Assembly (NCBI GenBank): GCA_001692895.1
Contig: KV748192.1
Coordinates: forward strand, 806,001-870,000
DNA from: Cenococcum geophilum 1.58
Taxonomy: Eukaryota; Ascomycota; Dothideomycetes; Gloniales; Gloniaceae
Length of the DNA: 64,000 bases
Direction: 5' to 3'
Numbering within the stretch: position 1 is the stretch's first letter; every line of letters starts with the position of its first letter. The translations under genes and the position numbers were made by a program. Of this stretch, positions 1,661 through 61,474 are shown piece by piece. Under the pieces are notes generated by a model that saw only the letters and a list, made by a program, of their open reading frames with translations, did not search any database and was not told the DNA's origin.

Positions 1661-4600
1661 GCGCCAAGTCTTATTACATAACGTTATTATAAGCCTTTAG
1701 TAATACCCCTTTTTTCTTCTCTATGCCTTAAATGTCCCTTCTATATATATATAGTAACCACAGCGTCGCCGGAGCTCTACCTCTATAGGAGGGGGGGTAG
1801 TATTATAGAACCCTACCGTAGGGGCCTCTATAGGAGAGCCCTGTGCTCTTATATATACCTTATATATAGCTTATATTAGCTACGCGTAGGTATATTACCT
1901 CCTTACGCCTTTAACCCTTATAATTAATTGCGTAACGTTTTATAGACTCCTTAAATATATACGCTCTATAGCTATTACCCCTATCCTATAATATAACTCC
2001 TTATTATAGATATTATAGTTTAATTCTAGTAGTGTTATCTTTTAACTATAGTATATTACTAGATGCTATGCGTTTCTATACTTTTATAGTAAATATACTT
2101 TTAGCATAAAGTCTAATATATTCGTTTTTATAACCATATCTAGTCTTAGTTAATAGATCTTAAGGATTAGCTCCTAGGTAAATAACTCCTTAAGTTCCTT
2201 AAATAGCTTCTTTTGCTTATCTCCTTATACCTATAGTTTCTCTTTCTTTATAAGCCTAGTAAACGGTTTAATATTCTTTAACTATTATGCTATAAACCTC
2301 CTATAGTAGTTATAAACCCCTAAAAATAACCTTAACTATATTATATTCTCTAGTTCTTACTAACTTACTATAGCTTTAATTTTCTTTAGATCTATACTAA
2401 TATAACCTAGTTTAATAATAAAATTAATCTTCCTAGTAAAGAACTTATATTTCTTAATTGCTACTAATATCTATTCTTCTTAAAGTCTCCTTAAAACCCA
2501 TTTAATATATTCCCTATACTCTTTCTTAGTTATTAAGTAGATAATAATGTTATTAAGGTATACCATAATAAACTTATTAAGGTGTTCTCCTAATATACTA
2601 TTAATTCTCTTTTAAAATATCGCTAGTATATTTATTAACCCAAATTGCATAACTAATAGTTTATATAGTCCTTCCTCTAACCTAAAGGCTGCCTTTTATT
2701 TATTACCTTTCTTAATTCTAATCTAATAGTATACCTACCTTAGATCTATTTTTATAAAGATTTATATATTACCTATTCTATCTTAGATTTTACTAATTAA
2801 GAGTAAAGGATACCTATCCTTTCTAGTAATGCTGTTTAACTATCTATAGTTAATATATAGCCTAAGTTTTCCATTCTTCTTTGGTATAAATAGTACTAAA
2901 TATCCCGCTAATAATTGTAATAGTTTAATATATCCCTTTTATAAGTTTTCCTAGACAAACTCTTTAAATGCTCTTAACTCCTTTTAAGTAAGCTTATAGG
3001 TTAGGAAGAACCTTAAACTTATTTCTAGTTTTAACTCTATTTTATAGTCTTATACTATATAATCTACTAGCTTTTTATTTTTTAGACTCTATAGTTTCTT
3101 ACTATACTTATAGTATCTTTTTAGTATATAGGATAACCCTTTTTTAATTTCCTTATACGTCGCTCTAACTTAGTACTATACTATTTTAGTTTGTTATTAT
3201 ATCTTATATTATTAAGTATCTCTAATATTAACCTAACCTATAACCTAATTAATCTTTAGATTATATTCCTGTAACTAAGGTATTTCTAATACTGCCTTAT
3301 TTTATCCTAATAGTAGGATATTAAAAGATATTTTAATTTATCTCCCTTTAATAGTTATTTAAATAGGTCCCGTTTTAAGGTTAATAATGCCTCCTCTATA
3401 GGCTATTAGATCTCCTAAAATTATAACTAATAGGTAAGATTACTCCTTCTATCTATAAAGTAATTCTATTCTCTTAACTACTACTAGTAAAATATAGTTT
3501 TTAATTTCTTTACTATCTATTAGCGCTTTAAACTGCTAATCTTACTAATTAACTTATAAATTTAGGTGCTGTTTTTAAATCCCTTTAAGGGTCTAAGGCT
3601 TTACTATTAGCTCCCTTTAGTTTTATAAGCCTCCACTTTTTCTAACTATTAGCTACTTAATTCTATTATACTTAGCTTACTCTTTAGCCAATACTTAGTT
3701 CGCTTTTTATCCTAAATATACTATAGATATATATTCTTTAGGCATTTCTACTACTATTATCTATCTAAGTATTCTTCTATAAGGAATCTTTTTAGTTAAA
3801 GTATTAAGTCTTCTAACTCTTAAACTTTTACTAGATATTATCCGTGTATATACTTAGTATTTCTATACTATTACTTTTTTAGCGCCTAATATATTCTTAT
3901 AGGGTACTTCCAATTCTTTTTTTTTTAGATTTTTATATTATATATATATATAATATATAATAATATATAATACGCTAGGTGCTTTAGGTTAACTCTTAAC
4001 TTATTTTTATCTTTAAGTTTAAACCTCTATTATATTAATCTAAACATTATAACTTTATTTACAGGTATTAAGATTTACCTTTTACTTCTCTAGTCCTTTA
4101 ACCGTTCCTTTTGATCCTTTAATATTATAATTAAGGCTCCCTTAATATAATTTATAGCTTTTTCCATAATAGGGTAGTCTTAGATAACTTACTTATCTAA
4201 CTATATATAGAAATCTTCCCATTTATTATTATATCGTTACCTATACTACTTTTAGTATAGCTACTAGAGTATATACGGCTTTTCCATAAGGAAGTATCTT
4301 CTTATTACTACGTTATAATAGCCCTTTATATATTGTTTCTTAAACCTAGTAGGGATCCCTAAATCCTCTTCTTATTTTAGTTTAGTAAGCTATTTTACTC
4401 TTAGCGTGCCTATCTTAGGCCTATTAGTTATTCTTTATATAGGTGCTCTGTCCCTTATATAACCTAGTATACTAAATCTCTAGTCTAGCTTTTATTCTTA
4501 TTATATAAGGATTCTTTATCTAAATTTCTCTATAGTTTCTTTTGTATCTTATCTTATAAGTAGATCCTTAAAGTCTTCTTACTTTATAATCTTATTATTA

Positions 4601-51157: not shown

Positions 51158-52493
51158 GCATGTGGAAGGATTATAGACTCGAACACAATGGCTGATTCAT
51201 TGCACTGCATATCCTCGCTCCCAAATTAAGCCATATTTCGGTCTCGTATTGACACCAATCGGAGAGATACGAGTAGTCCTTCAAAGGAGCCCAAAGATAT
51301 ATAACACGATTGAAGAGACTCGACTGGCATGGACGCTACAAAATTAAGATTTTTCCCCCGTCTTCAGCGTTCGTTTCCCTAACATCATCTCGAAATTGCA
51401 ATGGCATCGGTCCAGTGCTGTTGATAGCCGGCGCCTCTTTTAACGAGGATTCGCTCACTGCAGGTTTTTCCTGTGCCTCCAGTGCCGCGCTCATCAGTGC
51501 TAACTTCCTCTGCCACAAGCGTTTTGATCACTTTCCTGGCGTTTTCAACTCTTCTGGAGACTCGCCACCACAAATGAGCTCAATTACTAGACTGAATGTT
51601 AGACTACTATCGACCTTGCTTATGGCCGCGGGATCTGTCTGGAAAGTATGCAAGGACCTAGAAGCTGGCGCTGAGGTTAGTTTACGTTGCTAGTGGGAAA
51701 ACCGGGGTTAGAAGTACTGCTTGGGGAAGGAGAAATAGGATTTGGGCGTGTATTGTACATGTTTCCGAGGCGATTGAAGAAGCATTCGCATAAGCCACTT
51801 TGCTCTACTATTTCTCGAGAAGCTGCGATAACAGTCATGGTGTAATTTTCGATGGTCCTAAATAATGTTCGCGGATTGTCAAATCTTACGGTTGGTAAAA
51901 TGCTTCTCTCTTCTGCTGAGTCACTATTAGAGCCCTTTTTGGTTGAGTACTTGCGTGGAAGGATGTCCTTTTTCGTAGTTCTGTCCTTTAGTACTGGGTA
52001 AGGTGTTGAGTCCACAGAATTGCATGCAGCTAAAATCCTTGAGTTCAATTCCTTCATTTACCTCTGCCCGAAGCTACTTTCTTGGGGCTTTCTTCTCTTT
52101 GCTATCGTCTCCTACAAGAGCTCAATCGATTTCCCTCCAGAAGCCAGATTCTTTGGAATCTTCAGTCTTTTATCACTCCCCCCGATAGCCCTTCTCGAAG
52201 CATACTTTCGGCGGGGTTCAGCTCTCTAAAAGTTGCGAAAGGTGAAGCGCACGTAATCACGTTCATTTTCGCCACCTCATATATCATCCGAGAAACCGTC
52301 GTTGAATGGTGCTGTTTTCAAAGTGAATTGTCTTCTTTCTACATCTCTTGCACCTCATTACTACAATTTGGCTTTCCTTTAGCCGTACTGCATCACAAAC
52401 TGAAAGACGCAGTACCTAGGGTTACCAAGTTTCCGGACGGCACTGGCTTCATCTCGGCCTGAGGCAAGTGAGTAGACAGCTTGATCAAGCCTT
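51158..52493. other. Intergenic, possible 5' remains of the Argonaute relic
   Basis: Frames of about 125 codons occur on both strands (51,310-51,693 plus, 51,677-52,057 minus, 52,082-52,462 plus), none with a motif I recognise. Any lost first exon or promoter of the Argonaute relic would lie here. Confidence 0.35.
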
Positions 52494-53138
52494 GTGTCGG
52501 AAGCTTCGGCCTCACCAAAATCTCCTCAGTCAAGAGAACTTCCTATTCAAACTGAAGATACGGCATCACCGGCTGTTGCTACAACTCCCTCCCTCTATTC
52601 TCAGGCTATTTTGCCACCATATTCCCTCAGCGCAATGTCGACAGCGACCACATCACCACCCCAGTTAGCTACGACTCTTACCGGCATGAGCACTCTTGCC
52701 CTCTCGAGTCCTAAAGTGAGTTCCGCTAAACCTGTCGAGCGTGACTTGAGGGCGTTCCGGAAGCTACCCTCCAAGACTGTCGTCCAGACGGCAAATCAAA
52801 TAGACCGGAGAGAAGCATTTCAGCCGATCATTAAACGCAATCTTCGGATTGAGGTTGCTTCGGAACGCACAGAGGATGTCCACACTCTCAGGCTGGATTT
52901 CGCACAAGCGCAGAATGGCTACTATGTCTTTGCAAATTACTTCAAAGTGAATCTTCCGGAGACCGATCTATTCTAGTATTCCATTAGAGGCATGGACATG
53001 AGCTATTCACACAGCAAGCGAGAGCTCTTCTCTAGGTTTATCGAGATGTGTCCGATGAGAGTAACAAGCTTGAACAATAAACGCTCTACCACGACTGGCA
53101 GCCTGCGTGGTAGTAAAGGTGTGTCGACCTATAGTCGC

Positions 53139-54642
53139 CACTCTCTGGGCAGCAATTTTATTTTGAAAGGCACTATAAGAATCCAGTCACCCACTGCTCA
53201 CCCAGGGAACCCTCCATACCCCTCTCCCCCTAAGAGGGTGTACCGGAAAACCCACGCTTCAATTTAATATGCTTTGATTTTAAGCACGCTTCAACACATC
53301 TTAAAGCGAATGACAATGATGATAACGAAAATCATGCACGCCGAGCTTAGGTATTAAGTGAAACCTCGTCTAGTATCCAACCACGCCGTGTTCACCGCCT
53401 GCTTGCATATCCTATCTTTCTCCTTCTCGGAAGCCATGCTGTTGACTAGGAAGGAATAGAGGCTGTTTATTGATCTTAGGAATTTACAATTATGAAATTA
53501 GTATCCGTTGAATAACGGAGGCCTGCACATGTGACTTACCATCTTCCTATGTCGGGGGTTAGGCGTGGTTCCAACATAACCTTACGTTTCCGCATGTCTT
53601 GCAGTATTTCTTTGAGGCACACCCTGTCCGTATGCAACCCAAGCAATAATCAGGATAGGTAGCACCAGCACGGTGTGTACGCTGACGACGACCGCAGCAC
53701 ATGTAGTACATTGCCGATCTTAAAGCGTGCTTTTTTTCTTGCAAAAGGCTCTTGAGATAAAACCTGGCCTGGCAAATAGACGCTGGGTCGTGAGGTTGTG
53801 AGTGCGGATGGAAAAGACAAGTTGGACAGGTAGGCTGATAAGCAGCGAATGAGTATGCATTTGTATTCTATCTTTTCGCTACGTCAAGAAAGTAATAGAT
53901 GTATGCCTCGAGTTACACAGCATAATGCTGTAGCCTGTTCATTGAGCCACGTCGTTATGCTACGTCGCTGCCATGTCATCAGATCAGAGTGGCATCGCGC
54001 AGATAGGGTCGGAGGCTGGCGACCTTGCCCGACGAGACTCGAGAAATGTCTCTCCTTACTTTTCAACGCTTTGCTGCCCCTCGTTAATATCTCCAGCGGA
54101 TGCGAAATTCGCGCAGTTTCAAAGCACGGTATCCTTACGGTTGCAGTACTAGAAAGCTTACGAAAGTCAGCTGAGGCTTGTACGGCGAAATTGGATTAAT
54201 AGGGGCGTACGCGGTGCTATATTTGCTTGGAGCGTAACGCTCGCTGGGCAAGCTGGTTCTGGGCAGACTTGCTTGTTAATTGCTTGCCAAGACAGTCTAG
54301 AATTTAAAGTTCTATAGAAAGTCCGCTATAGCCTCGCCTAGTGGCAGTATATTACCCACTAAGCTCCTCTACTATTAATTAATTATAGTATAAGGTATAA
54401 GCTCGTTCGCGCGGCTCGGAGGCAGTTTATAAGGCAAACGCGGTAACAGTGTGTCCAACAGTCAGTCTCCAGCGAGCTTTGAGGCCCTATAGCTGACTGA
54501 CTGCGGCCAACCAGATCGCTCGCTGTCCGCTGCATCAAAATAAGGTACGCCGACTACTCCGCTGTCAGCTCGCTACTTGCCAGCTCACAAGATGATTTTG
54601 CGACGGGTGGTCATTCCCTTATCATTGCTAGGAAATACCTTG
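53139..54642. mobile_element. 1.5-kb insertion within the Argonaute relic, flanked by an 8-bp direct repeat
   Basis: ATAGTCGC occurs at 53,131-53,138 and again at 54,643-54,650, exactly where Argonaute-like reading stops and resumes. The insert starts CACTCT and ends ACCTTG. CA...TG ends and an 8-bp duplication fit the hAT superfamily, but I see no convincing terminal inverted repeat and no transposase. About 54,230-54,430 inside it is TA-rich and looks RIP-touched. An 8-mer match could be chance, so the case rests on its position at the homology break. Confidence 0.5.
53559..53708 (-). other. Small cysteine-rich open frame within the insertion
   Basis: An ATG at 53,708 opens 49 codons with nine cysteines (MYYMCCGRRQRTHRAG, CLGCIRTGC, then CKTCGNVRLC), spaced like a small zinc-binding or disulfide-rich protein. 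There is no signal peptide and no recognised family. It could be the only intact coding piece of the inserted element, an exon of something larger, or chance. Confidence 0.2.
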
Positions 54643-57088
54643 ATAGTCGCGAGCTAGGCCATGGAAAATAGAGCTCAGTCTAGTCTACGACGGCAAGATT
54701 CCTCTTAAAACCTACAAGCAATATCCAGGGTGGCCCGGCCTCTGATTCCATATTCTGCAACACCACACAGGTTGACCGGGCGTTGAACATAACCGTGGCG
54801 AAAGCAGCACAGAAAGACGCTCCGAAGGATTTCGGGACGTTTCAGCGTGGTGACAACAGGTATTATCTCAAGGCCGGTGCCGATAACCTTGGGCGTGGCC
54901 TAGTCGCAAACCGTGGGTACTTTTTGACAATTAAACCTGCTGTGGGCAGCGCTGTCATCAACGTTAACACCACGATGAGCACTTTCTTTAAGCCAATGCT
55001 ACTAAGTAATTTCATGGAACCTTTCGGCGCAGAGAATCGCACCAAGTTGGAGTGTATATTGAAAGGCCTCAAGGTTCGTATTGAGTATACTCGAGGTAAG
55101 GACAGTGAAGTCGATGTTGACAGCGAAGAACGGCGAATCAAGACGATCTGGGACCTTGGTTGGCCAGTTCAACTACAAACTTTTAAGAAAGAGGAGAACG
55201 GAGGAATGAAAGATATCTCAGTAAAATCTTATCTGGAGAAAGTGAGCCGAATAGCTAAAATTTGCTAGGTAATTGCTAACATAGTGGAGCATACAACGTA
55301 GTTGTCACAAAACCATATCTTCCATGCGCCAATTTTGGAGGCCCTCAAGGAAAAGAGTCCTAGTTCGCCCCGGAACACCTTTGGGTAATGCCAAATCAGC
55401 TCTACTAGGCATTCAAGTTTGGACTTCTGGATGATTTGAGCGCAAAGATGATTGAGAAAACTCGCCACACACCAGGACAAACCCGTGCGGTAATCCTTGA
55501 GGAAGGTTTACACTCGCTTAGGGTCTTGTTGCAATCACCTGCAGGTGTTTTATGTCCTTGCGTTTAATGCCAACCGCATATCCGCTAACAAGGGCAATTG
55601 TTTAGGCAATATTCGGCCTCAGCATTGATCCACGCATGGCGAGGACGCTTGGCAATCCTACCCTGGAATATCGCCAGGGTCAAAAGGCAATCCCGGGTCG
55701 GATGAACGGGCAATGGAATCCGAGTCAGAAAGTTCCTCGAAACGCCGAAAACTGTATTTAAGACCGCCGCAATCTTTTCGGATAGTCTCAGTGATTGCAA
55801 GATTTCATACATGGTGGAATTTATGAGGCAAATACCCAAGTATGCTAAAGATCTAAAAATCGAAAGAGGTCCAGCGTATACCATGCCCGACGGATGGCAC
55901 AAGGGCTACGTTTTAGGGACGCCAGACGGTTACCACAAAACTGAAATCCGGAAGGCCTTCAAGTTTGTGGAGGGGAAAGCTGACTTAGCAGTGCTCATAT
56001 TAAATGACTAAGGCAAAGATAGATACGCTCTCTTCAAGCAGATCGGGGTTCTTGAATTTGGCATACATTCTAATTGCCTTTCAGCTGCTGCAATGGAAAA
56101 GTACTGGAGACCAAATGATCAAGGGGGTCCTATACATGGCCAATGTGGCCATGAAGGTCAATATTAAAACTGGCGGAGTTGATCATTCCGTCAGCAAACC
56201 TCACCCGATTCTCAAAGGCACGCTTCTGCTGGTAGTGGATGCTACTCATTCCGGAGGCACAAGTAATCCAGGCACACCGTCGGTAGCGGTGGTGGTGGGC
56301 AGTCTAGATGCGAAGTGTGAGATTTCACGGCTCCATGCGCTTGCAAAACAGAGAAAGTTTGGAGGTAACCAAACTTCTAAATTAGTCAATACATCATAAG
56401 CTTACCAGACTCCTCAGATGATTGCGGGCTTTCAGTCAATGGTTGAAGAACGCATATTAGCATACCATAAGACTCAAAAATCCTGACCGAAGCGGGTTCT
56501 TTACTACTTTCGTCGGCCGAAGTGGCAAAGATTCGCACAGCTTTCGAACATGTCGTTCCGGCGAACCAGCGCAAGGAGCCTCTGCAAACCACAGCCATTG
56601 TGGTGAGAAAGCGACACCATACAAGGTTGATGCCTTGCCTGGTTCTGTACACCAGACGAGGAATGGGAATTGCCTCCCAGGCACGGTTGCGGAATCTGGC
56701 ATCACATCTCCGTATTATCTCGATTGGTTCCAGCAATCGCACAATGCCCTGCAAGGTACAGCAAGGCCGGCGCGTTACTATGTCCTGGGAAGTGGCATCC
56801 TAGATACGAATGGGAAGTCACTTCCAAGGACCTTCAGGAAGTTGCAAGCAACGACTCAATGCCTCTTTCATTATTTCTCTACTAATCACTTCGCAGCAGA
56901 TGCATGCTCTCTACTATACCTATGTAGGAGCTACCATGGGCGCTTCTCACATGCCGCCAGCATATTACGCAGACTTGTTGGCCGAGCGTAGACGCTGCTA
57001 CATTAAGCGTTTTCTCGATGGCGCGCCAGAATTGCGTGGTCAGTCAAAAGAGGTGGTTAAGGCGGCCATCGAGAGGGAATGGAACTAG

Positions 57089-57963
57089 CGAGTCGGAACT
57101 GGCCATACTAATCCATAGCATCCAAATTTGGATTCAACTATGTTCTGGGTGTGAGGCTACTGCCGAGAGAAGATATGAGGGTGAGGGTGAGATTGGCGGA
57201 GATACTTTCTATAGTCTCTTTTTCTTTATAGATCAATTGACACACGAGTTCTGACAAGTAGAGGACACCATCTGAGGCGGTTCTATTTTCCTCTTCCTTG
57301 CTTCACATCTAGGGTGGATTATAGAAGTCCCTATTTTCGAAGCTGGATCTTTCACGGATCGAGCCGTTGCTTTTCGATTTCCCAATTTTCCAATTTTGCT
57401 TCTACCCTGGCCGTCTCGTATCCTCACGAGATGGTCGCACAGTGCGAGTTTTGGCTATTACTTTCACTTTCTTACTCTTAGCTTGGCTATCCAATCGCTC
57501 TTTGCACGGCCTCAGTCTCTTGATGATCCTTCCAGCACTAGATTTTTCTCACGACGTGTTACCCTCAGCTCCGGGCGGCTCATCCCCGAGTAGCCAGCTT
57601 GATATCCAAATAATACCATGTGCTAGTAAAAAGAGCACTTATCATCCCGTTGTGATGTCTCAGCCGTTATGGGGTACGCGTACGGTAACGATGCCCTGGC
57701 TTTCGAAGACGCGCCCTCACGCTCCCTTTCCGCCCCCCTAATTCCCTCGAACTCCAACACAACCTGCGGCACCCTATCTCGTCCGCTAGTCCCTGACAAA
57801 CTCCACCGTCATTTCCGCCCTGAACTTTGCCTCCCTTTGTGAAGCTAAGGCGGTAGGCTCCACAACCACTAGACTCGTCTAGATCGCAGAGGAGAGACAG
57901 CCTCACCCCTCAACTAGCTGGAAGCCACATCCAACAAGCTAAAACCCGCCTCAACCCCCCACC
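57089..57963. other. Intergenic between the Argonaute relic and the membrane-protein gene
   Basis: A plus-strand frame of 124 codons (57,367-57,741) contains one hydrophobic stretch but no motif. The region also holds the 3' flank of the minus-strand membrane-protein gene. Confidence 0.35.
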
Positions 57964-60791: not shown

Positions 60792-61474
60792 ATGTCCAAG
60801 AACCCCTCCTTTGAAGGTGAGTCCTCCAAGATGCTCAAACACTTGACATATCAGAGTCGCTAACCATCATGTAGATGTTCTCGGCTGCCAAGCTGCCGTC
60901 TTCGAGTGGGCTGATAGCTACGACTCCAAGGCATGCATTTCAATGTTTAAGAATTGTCGATTTTGACCTCGACTGACCTGCTTGCTAGGACTGGGACCGT
61001 CTACGCAAATGCATTGCTCCTACCTTGAGGGTTAGTGTTTCCTTAGACCCCAACAAACCACCTTCGCCAGCCTGACAGTTGTGCTCCGTACAGATCGACT
61101 ACCGTTCCTTCCTCGACAAGATCTGGGAGGCGATGCCGGCCGAGGAATTCATAACCATGATTTCCGACCCGAACGTGCTCGGCAACCCTCTCCTCAAGAC
61201 CCAGCACTTCATCGGCGGCACTAAGTGGGAGAAGGTCTCGGATGACGAGATCATTGGCCACCACCAGCTTCGCGTGCCTCACCAAAAGTACACTGACGCA
61301 ACCCGCAAGGAGGTCGCTGTTAAGGGACACGCTCACAGCACCAACACCCACTGGTACAAGAAGATCGACGGCGAGTGGAAGTTTGCCGGCCTGAACCCAG
61401 AAATCAGATGGTCCGAGTATGACTTCGACAAGGTTTTCGAATCGGGTAGAGATTCCTTTGGCGATGCCAAGTAG
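60792..61474 (+). CDS. SCD1: Scytalone dehydratase (DHN-melanin pathway)
   Basis: The enzyme dehydrates scytalone to 1,3,8-trihydroxynaphthalene and vermelone to 1,8-dihydroxynaphthalene in the cytosol or melanin-forming compartment. Four exons, 60,792-60,816, 60,875-60,930, 60,989-61,030 and 61,094-61,474, encode 167 residues; the rice-blast enzyme has 172. The residues known for catalysis or binding in that enzyme (Tyr30, Asp31, Tyr50, His85, His110, Ser129, Asn131) are all present with an offset of six: Tyr24, Asp25, Tyr44, His79, His104, Ser123, Asn125. Motifs include YDSKDWDRL, RIDYRSFLDK, TQHFIGGTKWE and GHAHS. Intron 2 starts GC (AAG|GCATGC) and ends AG, a GC-AG intron forced by the reading frame. 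The gene looks intact and functional. No other melanin gene lies in the window. Confidence 0.97.

Follow-up and report, generated by a model that had tools for sequence, protein, structure and literature searches.

Losses of Argonaute genes in fungi are usually inferred from absence. Duplication and loss of these genes are known in fungi (funRNA), and the Pezizomycotina treated in PMC4290597 average 2.66 Argonautes, with a range of 1 to 7. Four Argonautes are given for Zymoseptoria tritici in PMC8303167, four Argonaute genes are named for Stagonospora nodorum in PMC10792503, and losses of the whole RNAi pathway are among the subjects reviewed in PMC7763443. The literature that we searched held no description of Argonaute relics in the genome examined here, that of Cenococcum geophilum 1.58 (177.2 Mb in 162 contigs). 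We analyzed a 64,000-nucleotide stretch of its contig C17 (G000:C17:806001-870000, hereafter the window), which carries a nearly full-length Argonaute pseudogene at about 52.74 to 57.15 kb. We hold with high confidence that it is a nonprocessed pseudogene from a distinct, duplicated Argonaute subfamily, once constrained and since released, of which no working member was found in this genome.

The homologous part of the C17 relic extends from 52740 to 57154 on the plus strand, and the open frame at its 5′ end begins upstream of it, at 52485. In reading-frame alignment with the intact paralog of contig C117 it scores 376, against 43 for its reverse complement and 33–45 for 12 shuffles that roughly preserve dinucleotides. 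Two of the eight pieces scanned pass the Pfam cutoffs for Argonaute families, ArgoL1 being found in 54684–55265 (31.1 bits, cutoff 22) and Piwi in 56004–56396 (29.5 bits, cutoff 28.9); the scan found no Argonaute family in the six others and did not recognize PAZ. Two pieces of the relic inside the window were also flagged by a six-frame Piwi search of the genome. Searched against the genome, the L1-PAZ piece matches the Argonautes of C117 (5e-10), C21 (0.001), and C3 (0.001), and it has no match among solved structures up to an E value of 0.1. Among these structures the PIWI piece is closest to Neurospora QDE-2 (3e-6 and 4e-6), followed by human AGO2 (from 5e-4).

Reading-frame alignments preserve the order N, L1, PAZ, L2, MID, and PIWI, in agreement with the first-pass annotation, which had followed the Argonaute domains in sequence and regarded the gene as dead but nearly full length. 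Both this order and an above-chance grouping with intact Argonautes point to descent from a eukaryotic Argonaute. The weakest part is the N domain, which was recovered in a single reading-frame alignment (to C117) and not in the splice-aware alignment; this N-terminal and N-domain remnant lies at 52740–53150. The L1 and PAZ remnant (54684–55241, Pfam ArgoL1 and splice-aware alignment) is still an open frame, and the alignments place the L2-MID remnant at 55606–56125 and the PIWI remnant, also recognized by Pfam, at 56127–57058. The relic is 29–34% identical to the three references C117, C21, and C3 (about 34% to C117), and these are 42–51% identical among themselves.

Three interruptions of the coding sequence are retained introns, all on the plus strand: 55242–55284, at a position common to C117, C21, and C3, although its phase no longer fits; 55562–55605, common to C117 and C21; and 56841–56896, common to C117. 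As three introns lie at paralog positions, the relic derives from an ordinary duplicated gene, and a retrocopy (processed pseudogene) is ruled out. A fourth intron is possible at 57056–57118, where TACTAAT precedes CATAG. The gene had been thought to end at 57088; its homologous C-terminus lies farther on, at 57119–57154, where HPNLDSTMFWV, the counterpart of HPTLQGTMFYL in C117, is followed by a TGA at 57152. Either the TAG at 57086 is a premature stop or it belongs to the possible fourth intron, and we left it out of the stop count.

A second, shorter Argonaute relic is present on contig C1 (about 5,009,356–5,009,980; L031, 3857–4481). It lacks the 5′ two thirds of the gene, retaining only the 3′ half of PIWI, where the second catalytic motif still has its RD. 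Aligned with either of two references it shows a single frame break and three stops; two of the three stops, at 4169 and 4187 of L031, are possibly intronic. The two relics have in common a segment NCLPGT...SPYY.D and a C-terminal tail, and they are identical at 64.5% of their best 31 residues and at 67 of 149 aligned residues overall. In a maximum-likelihood tree of six rows they group together with a support of 99/95, which becomes 98/94 when only the 3′ PIWI is used; the C1 relic fills 16% of the columns, and the tree does not settle where the pair attaches. A recent block duplication of the two loci was rejected: when the 8-kb C1 locus was compared by blastn with 44–64 kb of the window, the one stretch that matched (106 bp, 73%) belonged to neither relic.

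Over 126 codons taken from hand-chosen ungapped blocks, the two relics differ with a pS of 0.776, which is saturated, and a pN of 0.356. Bootstrapping puts the difference between pS and pN at 0.30–0.55, and shuffled codons give 0.72 and 0.75. Since pN is lower than a saturated pS, the C17 and C1 genes parted long ago and were constrained for much of that time before dying. A PIWI search of the genome found no working member of their branch, and an Argonaute subfamily that was distinct and had two members or more thus appears to be extinct in this genome. According to the history that we propose, the origin and duplication of this subfamily would be ancient, and purifying selection would have acted on it afterward. 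Its product was presumably a guide-RNA-binding slicer, to judge from the catalytic motifs left in both relics. Once released from selection, the C17 gene would have accumulated stops and frame breaks and taken up repeat insertions, and the copy on C1 would have died too, while four other Argonautes and other RNAi genes persisted.

These other genes bear directly on the suggestion of the first-pass annotation that one silencing layer had been given up in this lineage, next to massive RIP-mutated repeats. The genome search that it had proposed, for intact Argonaute, Dicer, and RdRP genes, yields four, two, and five loci, respectively. Seven PIWI matches were obtained in six frames, corresponding to four long genes (C4, C21, C3, and C117), the C1 fragment, and the two pieces of the C17 relic. 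The four intact-looking Argonautes show no disabling change outside introns, C4 being resolved without its N-terminus, and a TGA reported in C117 sits within a GT-AG intron. Spliced by hand, C21, C3, and C117 encode 1045, 1054, and 1031 residues; in the C4 gene the frame stays open for 820 codons. In the pieces of the two Dicer loci that we scanned, the dimerization, helicase C, and RNase III domains were found, and the stops reported for two of the five RdRP loci (C43 and C23) fall at exon edges, in GT-AG introns. The C23 RdRP gene also contains, at about 5080–5230 of L035, a 54-nt unit repeated in tandem and in frame, which holds an exon end and the apparent following intron (GAG, GTACGT...GACCAG). 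Cytosine methyltransferases are represented by two long open frames, one with 1192 codons and one with 730, presumably DIM-2-like and RID-like. A third match to this family (G000:C110:138974-139330) contains one TGA and three TAG and is possibly a further relic.

That the death of the gene ended a separate small-RNA pathway is therefore unlikely: a whole subfamily has died out, two or more of its members having long been under constraint, but redundancy would suffice to explain it, since the genome still has four Argonautes, two Dicer loci, and five RdRP loci. Because these loci and the two methyltransferase frames are kept, a lost silencing layer is unsupported; what appears to be lost is one Argonaute subfamily. 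A causal link with the RIP-marked repeats is likewise unsupported. Redundancy with the remaining four Argonautes is, we infer, the simplest cause. It is more doubtful still that the subfamily, with its at least two members under long selection, served a separate small-RNA pathway, for which meiotic silencing would be a candidate, and that this pathway collapsed in the lineage; if so, the two relics would date the loss of a silencing specialization.

Redundancy would account for the loss of a gene that is dead. Its death had been read from stops and frame changes, on the condition that introns do not remove them all. We put this condition to a splice-aware aligner in which GT-AG introns of 42–160 bases were permitted at low cost, with the intact C117, C21, and C3 genes as references and controls; C4 had neither role and was aligned over PIWI only, in a separate reading-frame alignment. 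With introns allowed, the relic shows nine stops against C117, six against C21, and five against C3, and six, eight, and nine frame breaks, respectively. Among the six intact-versus-intact controls, five have no stop and one has a single stop, with zero to two frame breaks. Three stops persist with all three references: the in-frame TAG codons at 55361–55363 and 55406–55408 (plus strand) and the TAA at 56009 in the L2-MID remnant. The TGA at 56484 in the PIWI remnant is a stop against C21 in the splice-aware alignment and against C117 and C21 in the separate reading-frame alignment; the in-frame TAG at 52974 in the N-terminal remnant was seen in one reading-frame alignment only, against C117. 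Frame breaks at 56124–56133, 56471–56507, and 56638–56653 recur with all three references, and one near 55751, in the L2-MID remnant, with C21 and C3. The codons at these lesions were confirmed by reading them back from the sequence.

Other breaks are less secure. Four stops of the C117 comparison (55759–55846) belong to a stretch for which C21 and C3 call for a different frame, and those at 55256 and 55277 (C21) and 55603 (C3) fall within likely introns. Some of the breaks are likely false through misalignment, because the relic is less similar to the references than these are to each other. The earlier claim of stops and frame changes holds, most securely for the stops at 55361, 55406, and 56009; three of the breaks turned out to be the retained introns.

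The catalytic residues have also decayed. The first PIWI aspartate was correctly recognized in DATHSGG, opposite which the alignment places GIDVTHPSPG in the intact genes. The motif RDGVSEGQ, carrying the second, is missing, having been lost near 56500, and the third residue is an arginine in the relic and a histidine in all four intact genes. These motifs were also aligned with those of QDE-2 and human AGO2. The relic therefore has neither the Asp, Asp, and His of a functional slicer nor a continuous frame after splicing. Each intact gene was also compared with the relic at columns that do not vary among the remaining three intact genes. The divergent C4 retains 127/243 of them and the others 127/147, 127/140, and 127/162; the relic retains 81/136, 76/129, 82/150, and 119/243. 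By this measure C4 hardly surpasses the relic. An active, intron-rich gene, from which splicing would remove every stop and frame change to give a working Argonaute, could draw on the three, perhaps four, breaks that are introns and on a C-terminus that is likely the true one. We consider it very improbable, given the three persistent stops, the damaged catalytic residues, and an N domain split by an insertion. Judged by its sequence, the C17 gene is dead, and it presumably has no present function.

The insertion, which the first-pass annotation had noted, is about 1.5 kb long and lies at roughly 53150–54650, its edges being approximate. It includes two multicopy repeat fragments near its 3′ end: a fragment of an older repeat (54264–54446), directly followed by a 128-bp end of a terminal-inverted-repeat element (54447–54574). 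This element, which we take to be hAT-like, starts with CAGTGTGTCCAACAGTCAG and has many copies in the genome; complete copies, which measure about 1.13 kb and are bordered by matching 8-bp repeats, occur in L015 and L016. No second copy of 53100–54270 was found in the genome search. With 40 of 180 candidate places scored, the 128-bp piece is 87–97% identical to the other copies listed. From about five nonsense changes in about 2,400 aligned bases, and with 3.3–3.6% of substitutions making stops, we estimated by hand about 0.06 substitutions per site since the death of the gene (Poisson range about 0.02–0.14), of the same order as the divergence between the element copies. The repeat insertion may itself have caused the death.

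Apart from the relic itself, the 40 scored places all lie in the two repeat fragments; none is a close DNA copy of the relic, and no Argonaute paralog was matched at the DNA level. Near-perfect guides against the paralogs are thus unlikely, and there is equally little to commend the idea that the relic now acts as a noncoding or small-RNA locus regulating them.

The window itself offers a strong contrast in composition. Positions 1–30000 are AT-rich with strong RIP-like marks that end sharply at about 30 kb: in 2-kb bins, the composite RIP index ranges from +0.72 to +1.55 over the fifteen that make up this part and is negative in all seventeen from 30 kb onward. About 22 kb separate the relic from the end of the marked block. 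Its neighbors are a Maf-like gene at 50.1–50.9 kb (Pfam Maf, 3e-19) and, at 58 kb, a frame on the minus strand that has no Pfam match. Beyond it, a piece of a gene for scytalone dehydratase, an enzyme of melanin synthesis, is found at 61076–61471 (Pfam 3e-71). Elsewhere in the genome, the 9 kb around the intact C3 Argonaute (L029, G000:C3:4082500-4091500) have a RIP index of +0.49 and a GC content of 0.41, so that this gene seems to adjoin RIP-marked DNA.

Killing of the gene by RIP, for instance after duplication, is the least credible explanation, since the genome is heavily marked in a RIP-like manner and does have long open frames for cytosine methyltransferases, but the index in the relic is −0.48 and −0.57, its GC content is normal, neither raised TpA/ApT nor lowered CpA+TpG is found there, and no close DNA copy appeared among the scored places. 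The negative index rules out RIP as the killer and supports decay by ordinary mutation, as the normal base composition had first suggested.

The nonprocessed pseudogene of a constrained subfamily can be set beside two intact Argonautes. Intact C117 has the same domain order and three intron positions in common with it, and N. crassa QDE-2 (PDB 2yhb and 2yha), the best solved-structure match of its PIWI piece, again has the same order. Unlike both, the C17 relic is disrupted, ends in a longer C-terminal tail, and falls, together with the C1 relic, on a separate branch. The second relic, joining the same branch, is what appears to be new here. The picture of RNAi traded for RIP in this genome is corrected, and the relic is better seen as an instructive fossil than as a lost defense. 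The four intact Argonautes fall within the Pezizomycotina range given in PMC4290597. Compared with the losses treated in that source, the one described here is documented by two sequence fossils and not by an inferred absence; standing beside four intact-looking relatives, these fossils would allow one to ask when, and in which relatives, the specialization was dropped.
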